A stretch of DNA of 35,063 nt, from contig PFOB01000016.1 of the NCBI GenBank assembly GCA_002792315.1, positions 1-35,063 on the forward strand, written 5' to 3'. The notes beneath the pieces are model-generated. The model was given only the letters and a program-made list of their open reading frames with translations. It made no database searches and had not been told where the DNA came from. The stretch comes from Candidatus Roizmanbacteria bacterium CG_4_10_14_0_2_um_filter_39_13. Its GTDB lineage: Bacteria > Patescibacteriota > Microgenomatia > UBA1406 > GWC2-37-13. The position numbers and the translations under genes were made by a program. Positions 3,548-11,372 of the stretch are shown piece by piece (position 1 is the stretch's first letter; each line of letters begins with the position of its first letter).

Positions 3548-4624
3548 ATGAAACAGATTGACCAGATATTAAAAAAAACAGGAATAATTAAGGTATCTCC
3601 AGACGATACTCTTTCAAGCGCTTTAGGAAAGCTTGCAAGTTCTCATGATGCTGCATTCGTTTTTGACGCATCAGATAAATTTTTAGGAGTGATCAATCCC
3701 TATTACACATTGATCAAATCTTCGGCTTTTGATGCAAGCACCAAAGTGGCACATGCGCTTTTTCATCCCCCCCACATTGATACAAAAGATTCATTGGTCC
3801 GTATTGTTCAGTTATTGAATGAATCTAAAATTCATTATCTTCCGGTATTTGATGATGAAAAAAAATTTCTTGGAATCACTTCAGCACGACGAATTCTTGC
3901 ATTTATGCAAAACCTGGATGTCGCAAAGCTTAAGATTGGTCAAATGCCTCATACACAGAAAGGGAAAGTTATCACGGTAAAACTTGATGATCCGATATCT
4001 AAGGCACAACAATTATTTAAGGAATATAAAACATCAAAAATAGTTGTCGTAGATAAAAATGATCGTCTTAAAGGAATATTGAGTCATTATGATCTTATTC
4101 CTTTTATCATGGCTCCGGGAAATAAATCTCGACGAGGAGGAAGAGGAGAGCAAACTCAGTTTAAGAACACTCCAGTGAAAAATTATGTGAAAACGACCGT
4201 TCTTACGCTTAACGAACAAAACACTGTTGCTGAGGTAATTGAACAAGTTTTGTCAAAACTCATTGGAAGTATCATTTTGGTCGATCATGAATCACGTCCT
4301 ATGGGAATTGTGACAACACGCGATATTCTTGATCTATTACGAATTGACAAGAAGAAGAAAAATGTTTTGATTACTACGAAAAATCTTTCAAAACATCATG
4401 TGGTAACATTTAATGACTTTGAAAAATATATCACCGAGTATATTCAGAGAACTGAGCCAATAGCATCGGCAAGTATCATTTATGAGGGAGAAAAAAACGA
4501 CCGACTCTTTAAATTAACTGTTCATTTGACGCCATATAAAGGAAAACCAATCGTCATTTCCCGAGAGGGAAAGGACTTTTCGAAACTCCTACAGGACGTG
4601 AAAGAAGTAGTGAGAAGAGGATAA
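3548..4624 (+). CDS. CBS-domain protein (multiple CBS repeats) with an extra C-terminal alpha/beta domain
   Basis: 358 aa; repeated CBS signatures (VSPDDTLSSALGKL, VKLDDPISKAQQLFKEYKTSKIVVVD, GIVTTRDILDLL) and a C-terminal segment not explained by CBS. Confidence 0.8.
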   Translation: MKQIDQILKKTGIIKVSPDDTLSSALGKLASSHDAAFVFDASDKFLGVINPYYTLIKSSAFDASTKVAHALFHPPHIDTKDSLVRIVQLLNESKIHYLPVFDDEKKFLGITSARRILAFMQNLDVAKLKIGQMPHTQKGKVITVKLDDPISKAQQLFKEYKTSKIVVVDKNDRLKGILSHYDLIPFIMAPGNKSRRGGRGEQTQFKNTPVKNYVKTTVLTLNEQNTVAEVIEQVLSKLIGSIILVDHESRPMGIVTTRDILDLLRIDKKKKNVLITTKNLSKHHVVTFNDFEKYITEYIQRTEPIASASIIYEGEKNDRLFKLTVHLTPYKGKPIVISREGKDFSKLLQDVKEVVRRG

Positions 4625-4635
4625 GCAACCTTCCC

Positions 4636-4671
4636 TTGACAAATACTAAACTACTAGTATACTAGTATGTA
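4636..4671 (+). promoter_or_regulatory. sigma70-type promoter for trpR: TTGACA (4636-4641), 16 bp spacer, TATACT (4658-4663)
   Basis: Direct match to -35/-10 hexamers. The predicted start site (~4670) coincides with the trpR ATG at 4671. Confidence 0.8.
4652..4667. promoter_or_regulatory. Candidate TrpR operator, 16-bp perfect palindrome TACTAGTATACTAGTA
   Basis: Perfect dyad. Matches the symmetric E. coli trp operator core TACTAGTTAACTAGTA at 14 of 16 positions (only the central dinucleotide differs), overlaps the -10, and lies just upstream of a TrpR-like gene and the trp operon. Confidence 0.85.
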
Positions 4672-4919
4672 TGTCAAACTTTAATGATCTGACTCGAATC
4701 TTAACTGATATCGATTCAGAAAGCGAAATGACCAATTTTCTCAACGGGCTTTTGACGCCAAAAGAGCGTGAGGAGTTTGTACGACGACTTGATATTATCA
4801 AAATGCTTAAAAAAGGAATGCCACAACATACGATTGCGGAGAAACTTGGGGTTGGGGTTGCAACCGTGACACGGGGATCAAAGGAGATACAGATGGGAAG
4901 ATTTAAAAATATTGCTTGA
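4671..4919 (+). CDS. trpR: TrpR-like repressor
   Basis: 82 aa; LLTPKEREEFVRRLDIIKMLKKGMPQHTIAEKLGVGVATVTRGSKEI resembles TrpR (LLTPDERE..., G.ATITRGSN) in the HTH region. Confidence 0.88.
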   Translation: MSNFNDLTRILTDIDSESEMTNFLNGLLTPKEREEFVRRLDIIKMLKKGMPQHTIAEKLGVGVATVTRGSKEIQMGRFKNIA

Positions 4920-4954
4920 ATCTCTTAATTTGTATTCATTATTCTGATAAAAAC

Positions 4955-5023
4955 ATGAAAAATAAATTTACAAAATCAATCTGGCAGTCTTGGCACACCC
5001 TCAAACAGGAGGATTTATTATGA
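4955..5023 (+). CDS. trpL: Putative trp leader peptide MKNKFTKSIWQSWHTLKQEDLL* (22 aa, two Trp codons)
   Basis: Small ORF read directly from sequence (not in ORF track), located between trpR and the intrinsic terminator preceding trpE; TGG codons at 4982-4984 and 4991-4993. Confidence 0.78.
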   Translation: MKNKFTKSIWQSWHTLKQEDLL

Positions 5024-5051
5024 TGGATACATAAGAATTATCTTTCGTAAC

Positions 5052-5079
5052 AAACTCTCCGAAATGGAGAGTTTTTTTT
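5052..5079 (+). terminator. Intrinsic terminator / trp attenuator (AAACTCTCC-GAAAT-GGAGAGTTT, run of 8 T)
   Basis: 9-bp stem with 5-nt loop; the T tract (5072-5079) supplies the last A-T pairs and continues as the U tail, 11 nt upstream of the likely trpE start (5091). Confidence 0.88.
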
Positions 5080-5090
5080 ATGAAACAAAT

Positions 5091-6452
5091 ATGAAAATAC
5101 CAAAGATATTGTTATCAAACAAACCACATTCCGCCAAAATTGCTGAAGATTTGGATTTTTTTGAATTGTTCAAAAAAATCCAAAATGATCAAGAAACCTG
5201 TTTTATCCTCGAATCATTGGGGGAGGAAAGTAACCGATCGAGATATTCGATTATTGGATTTGACCCTCAGATAATTGTCAGCTCAAAAGGGTCGGGCCTC
5301 ACTTTGTCCCAACAGGGAAAAACAGATGTCGAATACCAGAGCGATAATCCATATTTTGATCTTCAAAAACTCTTTCCAGATCGGGTGATGGCGCGAGATT
5401 ATGCCGGCGGCTTGATTGGATATCTGGGATTTGATTTATTTGAGAATATCGAACCATCAGTAAAAGTAAAGTCTCATCCTAATTTTGAACGATTGAAATT
5501 TGGCGTTTATACCGATGGCCTGGTATATGACAAAATGACTGGAGAGGTGTTTTACTTTTACTACAACAATAGTAGGTTTAATTTAGTCAAATCATACCTT
5601 GCAAAACAAATTGAAAAGACAAATGAGGTTTCTGTGACCTTCAAACAATATTCAATGACAAAACAACAATATGGAGATGTTTTCAGTAAGGTCAAAGAAG
5701 ATATTCGAGCAGGTTTCATTTTTCAGTGTGTGGTCGGATTTCAAGGAGAATACTTGATTGAGGGAAATGATATTGGTATATATGAAAAACTTCGGCGAGT
5801 GAACCCCTCACCACATATGTATTATTTAAAATTTGGCAAACAAAAAATTATCGGTGCAAGTCCTGAACTACTCTTTCGACTGAGAAACAACGATGTTGAG
5901 ACGTTTCCTTTGGCAGGAACAATACGTCGTGGAAAGGACATGAATGAAGATGTCAAACTAGCGCGAGCACTTCTCAATGATCCAAAAGAGCAGGCAGAAC
6001 ATAAAATGCTCGTAGATCTTCATCGAAATGACCTCGGGAGGATTGCAAAGGTTGGATCGATAAAGATTCAAAAATTGATGGATATAAAAAAATACAGTCA
6101 TGTGCAGCATATTTCGAGTGAGATATCTGGAACACTTGACGCACGTCAAGATATGTTTAGCGCCCTGGTGAGCTGTTATCCGGCGGGTACTCTTACCGGG
6201 GCGCCAAAGATAGAGGCGGTAAGGTTACTTGAAAAATATGAGACGAAGCCGCGTGGCGTTTATGGTGGCGCAGTCGGCTATTTTGGATTTAATGGCGATT
6301 GTGTGTTTGCCATACCCATTCGTTCGCTTTTTATTTCAGGAAACAAAGGATACACGCAAGCGGGAAGTGGTATCGTTCTGGACTCAGAAATTGACATTGA
6401 GTATGAAGAAATTATGAACAAGTTGAAAGCGATGGAGGTGACACTATCATGA
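5091..6452 (+). CDS. trpE: Anthranilate synthase component I
   Basis: Contains FILESLGEESNRSRYSIIGFDP, LAGTIRRGKDMNEDVKLA, PAGTLTGAPKIEAVRLLE. The track start at 5064 falls in the terminator loop, so 5091 (MKIPKILLSNK) is preferred. Confidence 0.96.
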   Translation: MKIPKILLSNKPHSAKIAEDLDFFELFKKIQNDQETCFILESLGEESNRSRYSIIGFDPQIIVSSKGSGLTLSQQGKTDVEYQSDNPYFDLQKLFPDRVMARDYAGGLIGYLGFDLFENIEPSVKVKSHPNFERLKFGVYTDGLVYDKMTGEVFYFYYNNSRFNLVKSYLAKQIEKTNEVSVTFKQYSMTKQQYGDVFSKVKEDIRAGFIFQCVVGFQGEYLIEGNDIGIYEKLRRVNPSPHMYYLKFGKQKIIGASPELLFRLRNNDVETFPLAGTIRRGKDMNEDVKLARALLNDPKEQAEHKMLVDLHRNDLGRIAKVGSIKIQKLMDIKKYSHVQHISSEISGTLDARQDMFSALVSCYPAGTLTGAPKIEAVRLLEKYETKPRGVYGGAVGYFGFNGDCVFAIPIRSLFISGNKGYTQAGSGIVLDSEIDIEYEEIMNKLKAMEVTLS

Positions 6453-7042
6453 AAATACTTATCATAGACAATTACGATTCATTCACCTTTAACTTGTATC
6501 AATTTGCGGGCGAAATATTATTGGAAGAAAAACTTGTGCCGAATATTACCGTAAAACGGAATGATGAGATCAATCTGTCACAAATACAAAAAGAAAGTTA
6601 TGATCACGTTATCATATCACCTGGGCCTGGAGATCCATCAGATGCAGCATATTTTGGCGTATGTGCCGACGTTATTTTGAAAATTGGTAAAACAATTCCG
6701 GTGTTGGGCGTGTGCTTAGGAATGCAAGGAATAGGACATTATTTTGGAGGCAAAATTGTCAAAGCCACGACTCCCATGCATGGAAAAACCAGTTGTATTT
6801 TCCATGATGAAAAAGGAGTGTTTAAAGGGCTGTCACAAAGACTGGAAGTGATGCGATACCACTCGCTTGTGGTTGATCGAAAAACAATACCCTCATGTCT
6901 TGAGATCACGGCAACATCACAAGTCACTGATGAGATCATGGGTCTTCGTCATAAATCATATCCGATAGAGGGAGTTCAATTTCATCCAGAATCTATTTTT
7001 ACCGAAAGCGGAAAACAGTTATTACGCAACTTTTTATTATGA
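6449..7042 (+). CDS. trpG: Anthranilate synthase component II (glutamine amidotransferase)
   Basis: 197 aa; IDNYDSFTFNL, SPGPGDPSDA, VLGVCLGMQ, GVQFHPESI; ATGA overlap with trpE. Confidence 0.96.
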   Translation: MKILIIDNYDSFTFNLYQFAGEILLEEKLVPNITVKRNDEINLSQIQKESYDHVIISPGPGDPSDAAYFGVCADVILKIGKTIPVLGVCLGMQGIGHYFGGKIVKATTPMHGKTSCIFHDEKGVFKGLSQRLEVMRYHSLVVDRKTIPSCLEITATSQVTDEIMGLRHKSYPIEGVQFHPESIFTESGKQLLRNFLL

Positions 7043-8025
7043 AAAACTTAACACGAATAGAGTCACAAAAACTTATCGAGCAAATGATGTCCGGCGAGAT
7101 ATCTCAGAAGGAAATGGCCAAAATTCTCAAAGACTTAGCTCAAAAAGGGGAAACCCTCGACGAGATTATCGGCGCTATTTATGCTATGAGGTCTCACATG
7201 AAGTCTATTCAAGCGCCAAATAGCTCGGTGGATACATGTGGCACCGGTGGGGATGGAAAAAACACATTCAACATATCGACTGCCGCGGCACTTGTTGTCG
7301 CTGGTGCCGGTGTACCGGTTGTAAAGCACGGTAATCGGAAAGCATCCAGCAAATGTGGGAGCGCCGATGTTCTTGAGGAGCTTGGCGTCAATATTAATCT
7401 CAAACCCTATCAAGCGGAGGAAATTCTTGAATCAATCGGAATCGTATTTCTTTTTGCTCCTATATACCATCCAGCAATGGCACAGGTTGTACCCATTCGC
7501 AAACAGTTAGGTATTCGAACCATATTTAATTTCCTTGGTCCATTTTGTAATCCGGCAAGAGTACGTCGACAGGTTATCGGCGTTCCAAATCTTGAAGTAT
7601 TAGAAACGCTTTCTCATGTTGCAACAGAGCTTGAATACAAATATTTGGCCCTTGTGACGAGCAGGGACGGAATTGATGAGATCAGTCCTACAGCGCCGTC
7701 TTTCATTCGAATAATTAAAAATTCACACGTATCATCACTACAGATAGATCCAAAGAAATATGGCATTCATCACGTTTCACTAGATGATATTATTGGCGGT
7801 GACGCGCGGAAAAATGCATCCATGATTCATTCGGTATTATCTGGAAAGAAGGGAACTCTACGCGATACTGTTCTGTTGAACGCAGCGATGACACTCCTTG
7901 TTTCTGGAAAAGCATTAGACATGAATCATGGTATCGAACTTGCGTCGAAATCTATCGATTCAGGAGCAGCAAAAAATATTTTAAAAGCACTTATTCATTC
8001 ATCAAATAATCATGAGCATTCTTGA
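7039..8025 (+). CDS. trpD: Anthranilate phosphoribosyltransferase
   Basis: 328 aa; DTCGTGGDGKNTFNISTAAALVVAGAGVPVVKHGNRKASSKCGSADVLEELG. Confidence 0.97.
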   Translation: MKNLTRIESQKLIEQMMSGEISQKEMAKILKDLAQKGETLDEIIGAIYAMRSHMKSIQAPNSSVDTCGTGGDGKNTFNISTAAALVVAGAGVPVVKHGNRKASSKCGSADVLEELGVNINLKPYQAEEILESIGIVFLFAPIYHPAMAQVVPIRKQLGIRTIFNFLGPFCNPARVRRQVIGVPNLEVLETLSHVATELEYKYLALVTSRDGIDEISPTAPSFIRIIKNSHVSSLQIDPKKYGIHHVSLDDIIGGDARKNASMIHSVLSGKKGTLRDTVLLNAAMTLLVSGKALDMNHGIELASKSIDSGAAKNILKALIHSSNNHEHS

Positions 8026-8776
8026 AGAAATAATCAAATATAAACAGAAGGAATTAGATGGGCTCTCAACGTTATCAGCATTACTAACCTCGGAGGTTAG
8101 TAATGCTTCAGTATCATTTACTGACGCGATAACACGTTCTAGAGTAGGTATCATTGCTGAAATAAAAAAGAAATCACTGAGTGCCGGAGACTTGGCTGGC
8201 GATCAAGATCTAGTTACCAAAGCTCAAAGCTACGGAGATGCGGGAGCCGATGCTCTATCGGTAGTGACTGAAGATAAATATTTTGGTGGAAGTGTGCAAT
8301 TATTCCAGGAAATTCGGAATGTAACTACTCTTCCCATGCTTATGAAAGATTTTATCATCCATCCCTCTCAAGTTTTGCAAGCAGAGCAATCTGGCGCTGA
8401 TGCAATTCTTGTCATCGCTGCACTCCGCAAGTATTTTCATCCGGATTTGTTGTCAACTTTGGCAGCATCATCTATAACTCCGGTTATAGAAGTTGCAACT
8501 ATCGATGAATTATCTTTCCCCTGTGTACAACGGGCAGAAGTCATCGGGGTGAATGCGCGTGACCTCAATACATTTCAAGTAAATATTGATAGAGCATGTT
8601 CGATAATTAAGAAAATATCAAAAAATACAACTGCGATTGCATTTTCTGGTGTGAATTCTCGAAGCGATATTAAGCGATATAAAGGGGCAGGGGCAGTGGC
8701 GGTTCTGGTAGGGGAGAAACTCATGAGGGCAAAAGATGTTACATCTGTTATTCACGAATTAAAATATGAAAATTAA
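8012..8776 (+). CDS. trpC: Indole-3-glycerol phosphate synthase
   Basis: 254 aa; IIAEIKKKSLSAGDL, LPMLMKDFIIHPSQVLQA, IGVNARDLNTF. Confidence 0.96.
   Translation: MSILEEIIKYKQKELDGLSTLSALLTSEVSNASVSFTDAITRSRVGIIAEIKKKSLSAGDLAGDQDLVTKAQSYGDAGADALSVVTEDKYFGGSVQLFQEIRNVTTLPMLMKDFIIHPSQVLQAEQSGADAILVIAALRKYFHPDLLSTLAASSITPVIEVATIDELSFPCVQRAEVIGVNARDLNTFQVNIDRACSIIKKISKNTTAIAFSGVNSRSDIKRYKGAGAVAVLVGEKLMRAKDVTSVIHELKYEN
8077..8107 (+). repeat. 31-nt inverted repeat (15-bp arms, 1-nt centre) inside trpC: AGCATTACTAACCTC-G-GAGGTTAGTAATGCT
   Basis: Arms are exact reverse complements. Confidence 0.95.
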
Positions 8777-9389
8777 AATCTGTGGAATACAATCAATTCA
8801 AGATGCTCAAACCGTCTTAAAATCGGGAGCAGATTTTATTGGCATTAACTTTGTACGAAACTCAAAGCGGCTAGTGACCGTTGATATTGGTCGTGAGATT
8901 ATCCAATATATTCATTCGACAGGATCAGATAGTAAAACGGTGGGAGTTTTCCAGAAGCAAACAAGCGACTATGTCAATATGGTGGCAGACAATGTAGGTT
9001 TAGATTTTGTGCAACTGCATGGTGACGAAACACCAGAATATTGCTCGCGTATAGAACGACCGATTATTAAGGCTTTCAAACTTGAGTCGAGTTTTGATGT
9101 TGAGAAAGCATTCCGAAGCATGAGTAAATATCACGTTGCACATTTTCTTGTTGATCGGCGTGTGCAAGGTGAGGGGGAACCATTGCAGATTGATAAATTG
9201 AGGGAATTAGCAAAATTTACTACCTTTTTCCTTGCAGGAGGATTAACGCCAATAAATACTACATCCATTGCACTTGCAGTAAGTCCTTATGGATTAGACG
9301 TTGCCGGGGGAGTAGAAACTGATCGAAAAATTAATGTGGAGAAAGTGCGCTCAATTATTATGAGTTGTAGCAATTATGAAACTTCTTAA
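8766..9389 (+). CDS. trpF: Phosphoribosylanthranilate isomerase
   Basis: 207 aa; [56 protein letters not shown]. Confidence 0.95.
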
Positions 9390-10623
9390 TTTCAAAACAA
9401 AATACGACGCAGATGCCAGCGGACATTTTGGCCCGTTTGGCGGTCGATATGCTCCGGAGATGCTTATTCCCGCTTTGGAAGAGTTAGAGCGAGAGTACTT
9501 GGCGATAAAAAAAGATCCTGACTTTGAAAAAGAATTTCTTTATTATCTTAAAACATACGTAGGACGACCATCGCCCCTATATTTTGCTGAAAATCTTACC
9601 AAAAAACTAGGTGGAGCAAAAATATATATGAAAAATGAAGGGTTAAATCATACCGGCGCACACAAGATAAATCATTGTTTGGGGCAGGCGCTTTTGGCCA
9701 AACGTATGGGCAAAAAGCGCCTGATTGCCGAGACGGGCGCAGGTCAACATGGTGTGGCGGCAGCAACAGTGGCGGCCCGATTTGGGTTCGATTGTACCGT
9801 GTATATGGGTGAAGAAGATATAAAAAGGCAGAGACCGAATGTGTTTTGGATGCAACGACTTGGTGCCACGGTTGTACCGGTTATGGAAGGTTCGCGAACG
9901 CTTAAAGATGCGGTGAATGCTGCACTCAAAGACTGGATCACAAATGTTGAAGACTCTCATTATTTATTGGGGTCTACGCTGGGACCACATCCGTTTCCAT
10001 CTCTAAACCGTGACTTTCAACAAATTATTGGATATGAAGTAAAACAACAAATACAAGAATTTGAAGGTAGATTGCCCGATATGCTTGTGGCATGTGTGAG
10101 CGGTGGAAGCAATGCGCTCGGACTCTTTTACCGATTTTTGGAGGATTCATCTGTTCGACTCATCGGTGTGGAGGCAGGTGGTGAGGGAGTGAATAAAAAG
10201 GGCAGACATGCCTCTCGGTTTGCAGGTGGCACGCTGGGTATAGTTCAGGGCTATAAAACAATCTTTTTGCAGGATGCTGATGGAAATATAGCCGAAACTC
10301 ACAGTATTTCAGCTGGATTGGATTACCCTGGTATAGGGCCTCAATTTGCCCTCTTGAAAGATATGGGGCGGGTAGAATTTTCATCTGCAACTGACAAGGA
10401 GACTTTGCATGCGTTCAATCTTACGGTAAAACTCGAAGGCATTTTGCCGGCACTTGAATCAGCACACGCCATAGCAGAAGTCATTAAACAGGCACCGAAA
10501 CTTTCCAAAGACAAAATCATTGTAGTAAATATTTCTGGGCGCGCAGATAAAGATATTTTTATTGTGGCAGAGGCACTCGGTGACAAGGACTGGGATCAGT
10601 TTATAAAGGAGCAAGCAAAATGA
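9376..10623 (+). CDS. trpB: Tryptophan synthase beta chain
   Basis: 415 aa; [64 protein letters not shown]. Confidence 0.98.
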
Positions 10624-11372
10624 AAAAAATAAAACTAATGACACACGTAGTGGTGGGGTATCCTGATATCGCATCAACAAATGAACTAGTGAAAGCAATG
10701 GAACAGGCTGGTGCAGATTATGTGGAGTTACAAATCCCATTTTCTGATCCTATTGCCGATGGGCCTACAATAATGAAAGCCTGTGATACTGCTCTCAAAA
10801 AAGGTGTGACAGTGCGAGATTGTCTGAGAGTCATGAAAACTTTATCTGATCAAGTATCAACCCCACTATTTTTCATGGGATATTACAACACGGTATTCCA
10901 CTTCGGAGTTGAGAAGTTTTGCAAAGCGGCAAAATCTGCTGGCGCCTATGGACTCATTATTCCCGATATGCCACCCGATGAAGAGCAACATGAACACTTC
11001 ATCAAAGCATGTCGCACACATCATTTAGCTCAAATCCGTGTGGTTACACCAGCAAGCTCCTCTCATCGTTTGAAACTCAATGCGGAGGTTTCTGATGACT
11101 TTGTGTATTGTGTGAGCCATTTTGGAGTTACGGGGTCATCAGTCAGCAAAAAGGTTGGATTTGAATCGTACCTCAAACGAGTAAAAAAATATTTCAAAAT
11201 TCCGATCGCTGTTGGATTTGGCATATCGGGGAGAGAAGATGTTCGACAAGTTGAACCTTATGCGGACATCGTTGTTGTCGGGAGTGCAATAATCAGAATT
11301 ATTGAAAAGTCACAATCATTTAAGAGAGCGTTGGAGGAAATAATAATGCTCATTCGTAGTCTACGAGCATGA
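10620..11372 (+). CDS. trpA: Tryptophan synthase alpha chain
   Basis: 250 aa; [50 protein letters not shown] overlap with trpB. Confidence 0.95.

Follow-up and report, generated by a model that had tools for sequence, protein, structure and literature searches.

A probable ribosome-mediated attenuator between trpR and trpE in a Roizmanbacteria trp operon, and its relatives across the CPR

The usual picture of CPR bacteria is one of stripped-down cells in which amino-acid synthesis undergoes little fine regulation. The 35,063-nt contig analyzed here at full length (PFOB01000016.1, hereafter the window), from Candidatus Roizmanbacteria bacterium CG_4_10_14_0_2_um_filter_39_13, carries a trp operon in which a short ORF with two Trp codons and an intrinsic terminator separate trpR from trpE, and it raises the question of how transcription into the biosynthetic genes is controlled. 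An initial annotation, made from the letters of the window alone, had proposed an E. coli-style attenuator in a CPR-like host. The host assignment is borne out by a same-genus relative, Candidatus Roizmanbacteria CG_4_9_14_0_2_um_filter_39_13, and the attenuator reading is supported by the parts conserved in relatives and the covariation of both alternative stems. We consider it very probable that the element is the trp operon's ribosome-mediated transcription attenuator, acting together with TrpR repression at the promoter. The parts, their conservation, the covariation and the geometry all support this reading.

All features of the operon lie on the + strand. It begins at a sigma-70-type promoter (4636-4663; TTGACA-16-TATACT, matching 11 of 12 consensus positions), whose -10 box is overlapped by a predicted TrpR operator, the perfect palindrome TACTAGTATACTAGTA (4652-4667), with the half-site spacing of the E. 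coli trp operator. With zero to two mismatches, CTAGTATACTAG is found 5' of 70 of 81 trpR genes drawn from the CPR and a few other records, compared to 0.7 expected from shuffles. The palindrome at the promoter places the operon in the TrpR regulon at the sequence level, and its repression through the perfect CTAGTATACTAG operator overlapping the -10 box is very likely, with TrpR binding predicted.

The first gene is trpR (4671-4919; Pfam PF01371, 5.4e-19), whose match to TIGR01321 (8e-17) falls slightly under that model's cut-off, and the first regulated gene is trpE (5091-6452; PF00425, 1e-82, and PF04715); with both genes confirmed by Pfam, the unannotated leader does lie between them as proposed. 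The trpGDCFBA block (6449-11372), in which every start overlaps the preceding stop, comprises trpG (6449-7042; ORF and Pfam), trpB (9376-10623; ORF and NCBIfam), and the ORFs of trpD (7039-8025), trpC (8012-8776), trpF (8766-9389) and trpA (10620-11372), identified from sequence and gene order. Because the promoter carries the palindrome and the genes are confirmed, we read the operon in the order operator, trpR, leader, terminator, trpEGDCFBA. The same genome encodes a distant second member of the TrpR family (40% identity; G000:C2:4070-4261, L131), perhaps YerC-like, with counterparts in G002, G004, G005 and G006. A 35-nt near-perfect inverted repeat, TTTGGATTTTTTTGAATTGTTCAAAAAAATCCAAA, lies inside the start of trpE (5150-5184) and came to light via chance matches to miRNA models.

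The leader ORF (4955-5023; 22 codons, MKNKFTKSIWQSWHTLKQEDLL and a stop) starts with an ATG 35 nt past the trpR stop codon, where we found no Shine-Dalgarno sequence. Its two Trp codons (4982-4984 and 4991-4993) bound the stretch UGG CAG UCU UGG (W-Q-S-W; 4982-4993), the proposed stall site, and strand 2 of the competing pairing begins about 26 nt past the first of them and 13 nt ahead of the stop codon. A strong intrinsic terminator formed by strands 3 and 4 follows (5052-5079; AAACTCTCC-GAAAT-GGAGAGTTT and a U run) and stops 11 nt short of the trpE start codon (ATG, 5091). ORF and terminator both sit where the initial annotation had placed them, and the pairing it had described between GGAGGAUUU (5008-5016) and AAACUCUCC (5052-5060), at eight of nine positions, is confirmed. 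This pairing reaches beyond its core: strand 2 extends over 5008-5029 and strand 3 over 5039-5060, with 5052-5060 doubling as the terminator 5' arm, and 5008-5060 forms a single 53-nt hairpin. The fold of 4994-5060 has an energy of -14 kcal/mol (z -2.7 versus shuffles). The extended hairpin is needed for this signal, as the simple core with a short strand 3 does no better than shuffles (p 0.27). When the window alone is dinucleotide-shuffled, 3% of the shuffles yield a leader ORF of this kind, with two or more Trp codons and ahead of the terminator.

The 1:2 hairpin that had also been suggested, CCUC/GAGG (4999-5012), does appear in the MFE fold as a weak, 4-bp stem, but it is not conserved, being absent or different in the same-genus leaders L043 and L049; in L096 the hairpin is strong. 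Because this hairpin has only 4 bp, the ribosome-free fold up to strand 3 favors the antiterminator, and in this model an untranslated leader, unlike that of E. coli, may read through. We also considered a TTG start codon that in the window would overlap the stop of trpR, and dropped it because L043 has no counterpart.

Two same-genus relatives retain the small ORF, its Trp codons and the terminator. L043 (contig PFSC01000159.1 of the CG_4_9_14_0_2_um_filter_39_13 genome, G004:C72) encodes the leader MNIQQMEIAIWQSWQTLKEDLL, ending in a stop and with the core IWQSW, followed by a CCCTCC/GGAGGG terminator. From strand 2 to strand 3 it spans 53 nt, as in the window, gap-free and with 17 substitutions, yet 19 of 19 antiterminator pairs are kept (null P < 5e-5), two having been altered on both sides and four on one. 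L049, from Roizmanbacteria UBA1450 (genome G006), encodes MNIKIIYTYWQKWYFERRRTDCSG and a stop, with the core YWQKW. This locus retains tldE, a CBS gene, trpR, leader and terminator (L049:2501-4249); the trp operon is absent 3' of the attenuator, where an epimerase gene adjoins instead, and from the sequence the element looks like an attenuator left behind after operon deletion. Across the three leaders, 95% of cells in the antiterminator are paired and five pairs have changed on both sides, compared to 40-55% and zero to two pairs in slid-partner controls; in the terminator, 100% of cells are paired and three pairs have changed on both sides. The covariation that the initial annotation had suggested looking for in the 2:3 and 3:4 stems is thus found in both, in a set of few sequences for which the shuffle-control counts (7/500 for the antiterminator, 37/500 for the terminator) are not to be read as probabilities.

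Beyond the genus, a TrpR profile scan gave 80 named loci, or 81 with the window. Within the stretch examined at each locus, an intrinsic terminator lies downstream of trpR in 40 of the 81, and 28 of these 40 have a leader ORF (ATG start, 10-40 codons, at least two Trp codons, end within 75 nt of the terminator), where dinucleotide shuffles predict 0.88. Lineages with the element include Roizmanbacteria, Levybacteria, Saccharibacteria, Dojkabacteria and Paceibacterota. The probable attenuator of the window, flagged at the outset as notable for a CPR-like genome, is no isolated case: it belongs to a family spread over the CPR. One locus labeled Oligoflexia, L118, is nearly identical in its trpR-leader region to Saccharibacteria L085 and L086, and its label is likely a binning error.

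The geometry first proposed for the window also holds across this family. In all 28 leader loci, strand 2 starts 15-30 nt past the first Trp codon, in a search that imposed a minimum of 12 nt; the same code places it 19 nt past that codon in E. coli trpL. Compared to shuffled leader segments, the 2:3 duplex is stronger over 23 non-redundant loci with near-duplicates removed (Fisher P 3e-17), with 14 of the 23 reaching p <= 0.05 singly. In a swap test, each locus's own 2:3 duplex averaged -14.5 kcal/mol, compared to -9.9 kcal/mol with another locus's strand 3 (z -7.9), and none of 20,000 permutations was as low as observed. This result is alignment-free covariation, and we preferred it over column counts because strand 2 was poorly aligned for two members of the 8-sequence trpB-type leader alignment. 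In 16 of the 28 loci, the ATG of the leader and the stop codon of trpR overlap (eight by ATGA, four by -8 and four by TAATG), which points to reinitiation.

A rival account would have the terminator just end the trpR transcript, with the short ORF there by chance and trpE served by its own promoter. Terminators after repressor genes are ordinary, and the congeners L005 and L014, in which trpR leads directly into trpE, manage without a leader. We nonetheless judge this account very unlikely: Trp-rich leader ORFs are about 30 times commoner before these terminators than in shuffles, the second stem covaries though it would be of no use to a plain terminator, and in a scan of 4000-6000 the trpR-trpE gap showed no promoter-like site on the + strand.

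Lower still in probability is some other form of leader-peptide control: free tryptophan might stall the nascent peptide, as in TnaC, or the element might free the trpE start site. The latter could draw on the window and L043, where the terminator 3' arm might provide the Shine-Dalgarno sequence of a 4-codon ORF, but start-codon spacing is different in L046, L117 and L096. Against an arrest peptide, the residues around the Trp codons are highly variable, and the regulated genes are biosynthetic, so that tryptophan would be expected to lower their expression rather than raise it. A leader that binds tRNA as a T-box does, or a protein in the manner of TRAP, is extremely unlikely in the window, despite the T-box-like leaders 5' of trpE in many other Patescibacteria, as the T-box sequence GGUGGNACC is absent between its trpR and trpE, RF00230 gives no match at E <= 5, and there is no GAG/UAG repeat array.

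The region just upstream of trpE has further features of its own. The terminator 3' arm GGAGAG (strand 4; region 5066-5091) is a possible ribosome-binding site about 8 nt before an ATG at 5080, which opens the 4-codon ORF and overlaps the trpE start as ATGA, likewise in L043; a second, translational layer of control at 5066-5091 is possible. A further mini-ORF, MMDT (5020-5034), with GGAGG (5008-5012) as its Shine-Dalgarno sequence, was rejected, because its start codon is missing in L049 and pairing already accounts for GGAGG.

Under the attenuator reading, the Trp-rich leader ORF, the terminator before the first structural gene, the covarying 2:3 stem and the geometry are those of the trpL type, and we infer from them how the switch would work. 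RNA polymerase would initiate at the 4636-4663 promoter and transcribe trpR, then the leader. With charged tRNA-Trp abundant, a ribosome translating the leader would reach its stop codon (5021-5023) and mask strand 2 (5008-5016), leaving strand 3 to pair with strand 4; transcription would terminate at about 5079, and trpR alone would be made. With tRNA-Trp uncharged, the ribosome would stall at one of the two UGG codons, at 4982 (about 26 nt 5' of strand 2) or at 4991 (about 17 nt). The 2:3 hairpin (5008-5060) could then form in place of the terminator, switching transcription on into trpEGDCFBA.

Most leader loci have Trp-related genes downstream. These are trpE in the window, L043, L046, L117 and L096; trpS and then trpE in L116; trpB, often with trpS, in L050, L054, L079, L088, L097, L103, L107, L113 and others; and an IGPS-type trpC in L091. 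In L052, L085 and L106, the gene that follows belongs to no family linking it to tryptophan. At L069 (2737-5055), the attenuator, with the leader MYRQRIILRADKVWWNPQYISG and a terminator, is followed by tRNA-Trp(CCA), an unknown ORF and an archaeal-type TrpRS. A CPR operon of trpR, tRNA-Trp(A73), ORF1 and archaeal-type TrpRS appears in the portion of PMC5370408 consulted, and L069 shares its head of trpR, then tRNA-Trp, ORF and archaeal-type TrpRS; that portion describes the repressor gene and does not mention a leader peptide or attenuator, such as L069 carries. We see about an even chance that these loci form a CPR-wide, repressor-first class, in which trpR and the Trp leader would be a single module, set before different Trp genes that include trpS and the tRNA-Trp/archaeal-type TrpRS operon, and in which leader ribosomes supplied by trpR translation would take the place of the 1:2 protector hairpin of E. 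coli.

The mechanism itself is already known. The novelty lies in the lineage, in the placing of the repressor first and in leaders whose start often falls on the stop codon of trpR; this repressor-coupled layout may deserve the status of a variant. Two-layer control by TrpR and an attenuator in several CPR groups implies tight coupling of transcription and translation in uncultured cells. We found no report of attenuation in the CPR in the open-licence literature, which omits most subscription journals. The attenuators are also concrete RNA elements missing from Rfam: at its gathering threshold, the Trp_leader model RF00513 matched neither the window nor 20 relative loci, and no relevant family appeared at gathering or relaxed thresholds.

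E. coli trpL (RF00513) likewise combines a short Trp-codon ORF with competing 2:3 and 3:4 stems, an intrinsic terminator just 5' of trpE, a strand 2 that begins about 20-26 nt past the first Trp codon, and TrpR as a second layer. It differs in that trpR here opens the operon itself, with the leader lying within the operon rather than at the transcript start and, in the 16 loci noted above, beginning on the trpR stop; the window also has W-x-x-W where E. coli has WW, and a weak 1:2 hairpin. For the repressor-first layout there is one precedent, proposed and contested: the trpR-IGR-trpBA operon of Chlamydia, where trpR also comes first and the gap between trpR and trpB has been suggested to hold a leader ORF with an attenuator (PMC3937554, PMC7755916). 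The chlamydial trpL, at 59 aa, is unvalidated and deemed atypical (PMC7755916), whereas the leader described here is short, and it is conserved, with stems that covary. In trp operons, T-box leaders also govern a terminator according to tRNA-Trp charging, but they bind the tRNA directly, with no ribosome or leader peptide. T-box-like leaders (GGTGGCACC and variants) lie 5' of trpE, with no linkage to trpR, in many Patescibacteria (L017, L019, L021, L022, L024-L033, L035, L036 and L040-L042); four such loci searched with RF00230 at relaxed thresholds all scored below its gathering score of 93 (68 bits for L041, 43 bits for L027), and Rfam may miss the T-box form of these bacteria. With attenuators beside the T-boxes of sister lineages, tRNA-Trp charging is apparently read in two ways within one phylum.
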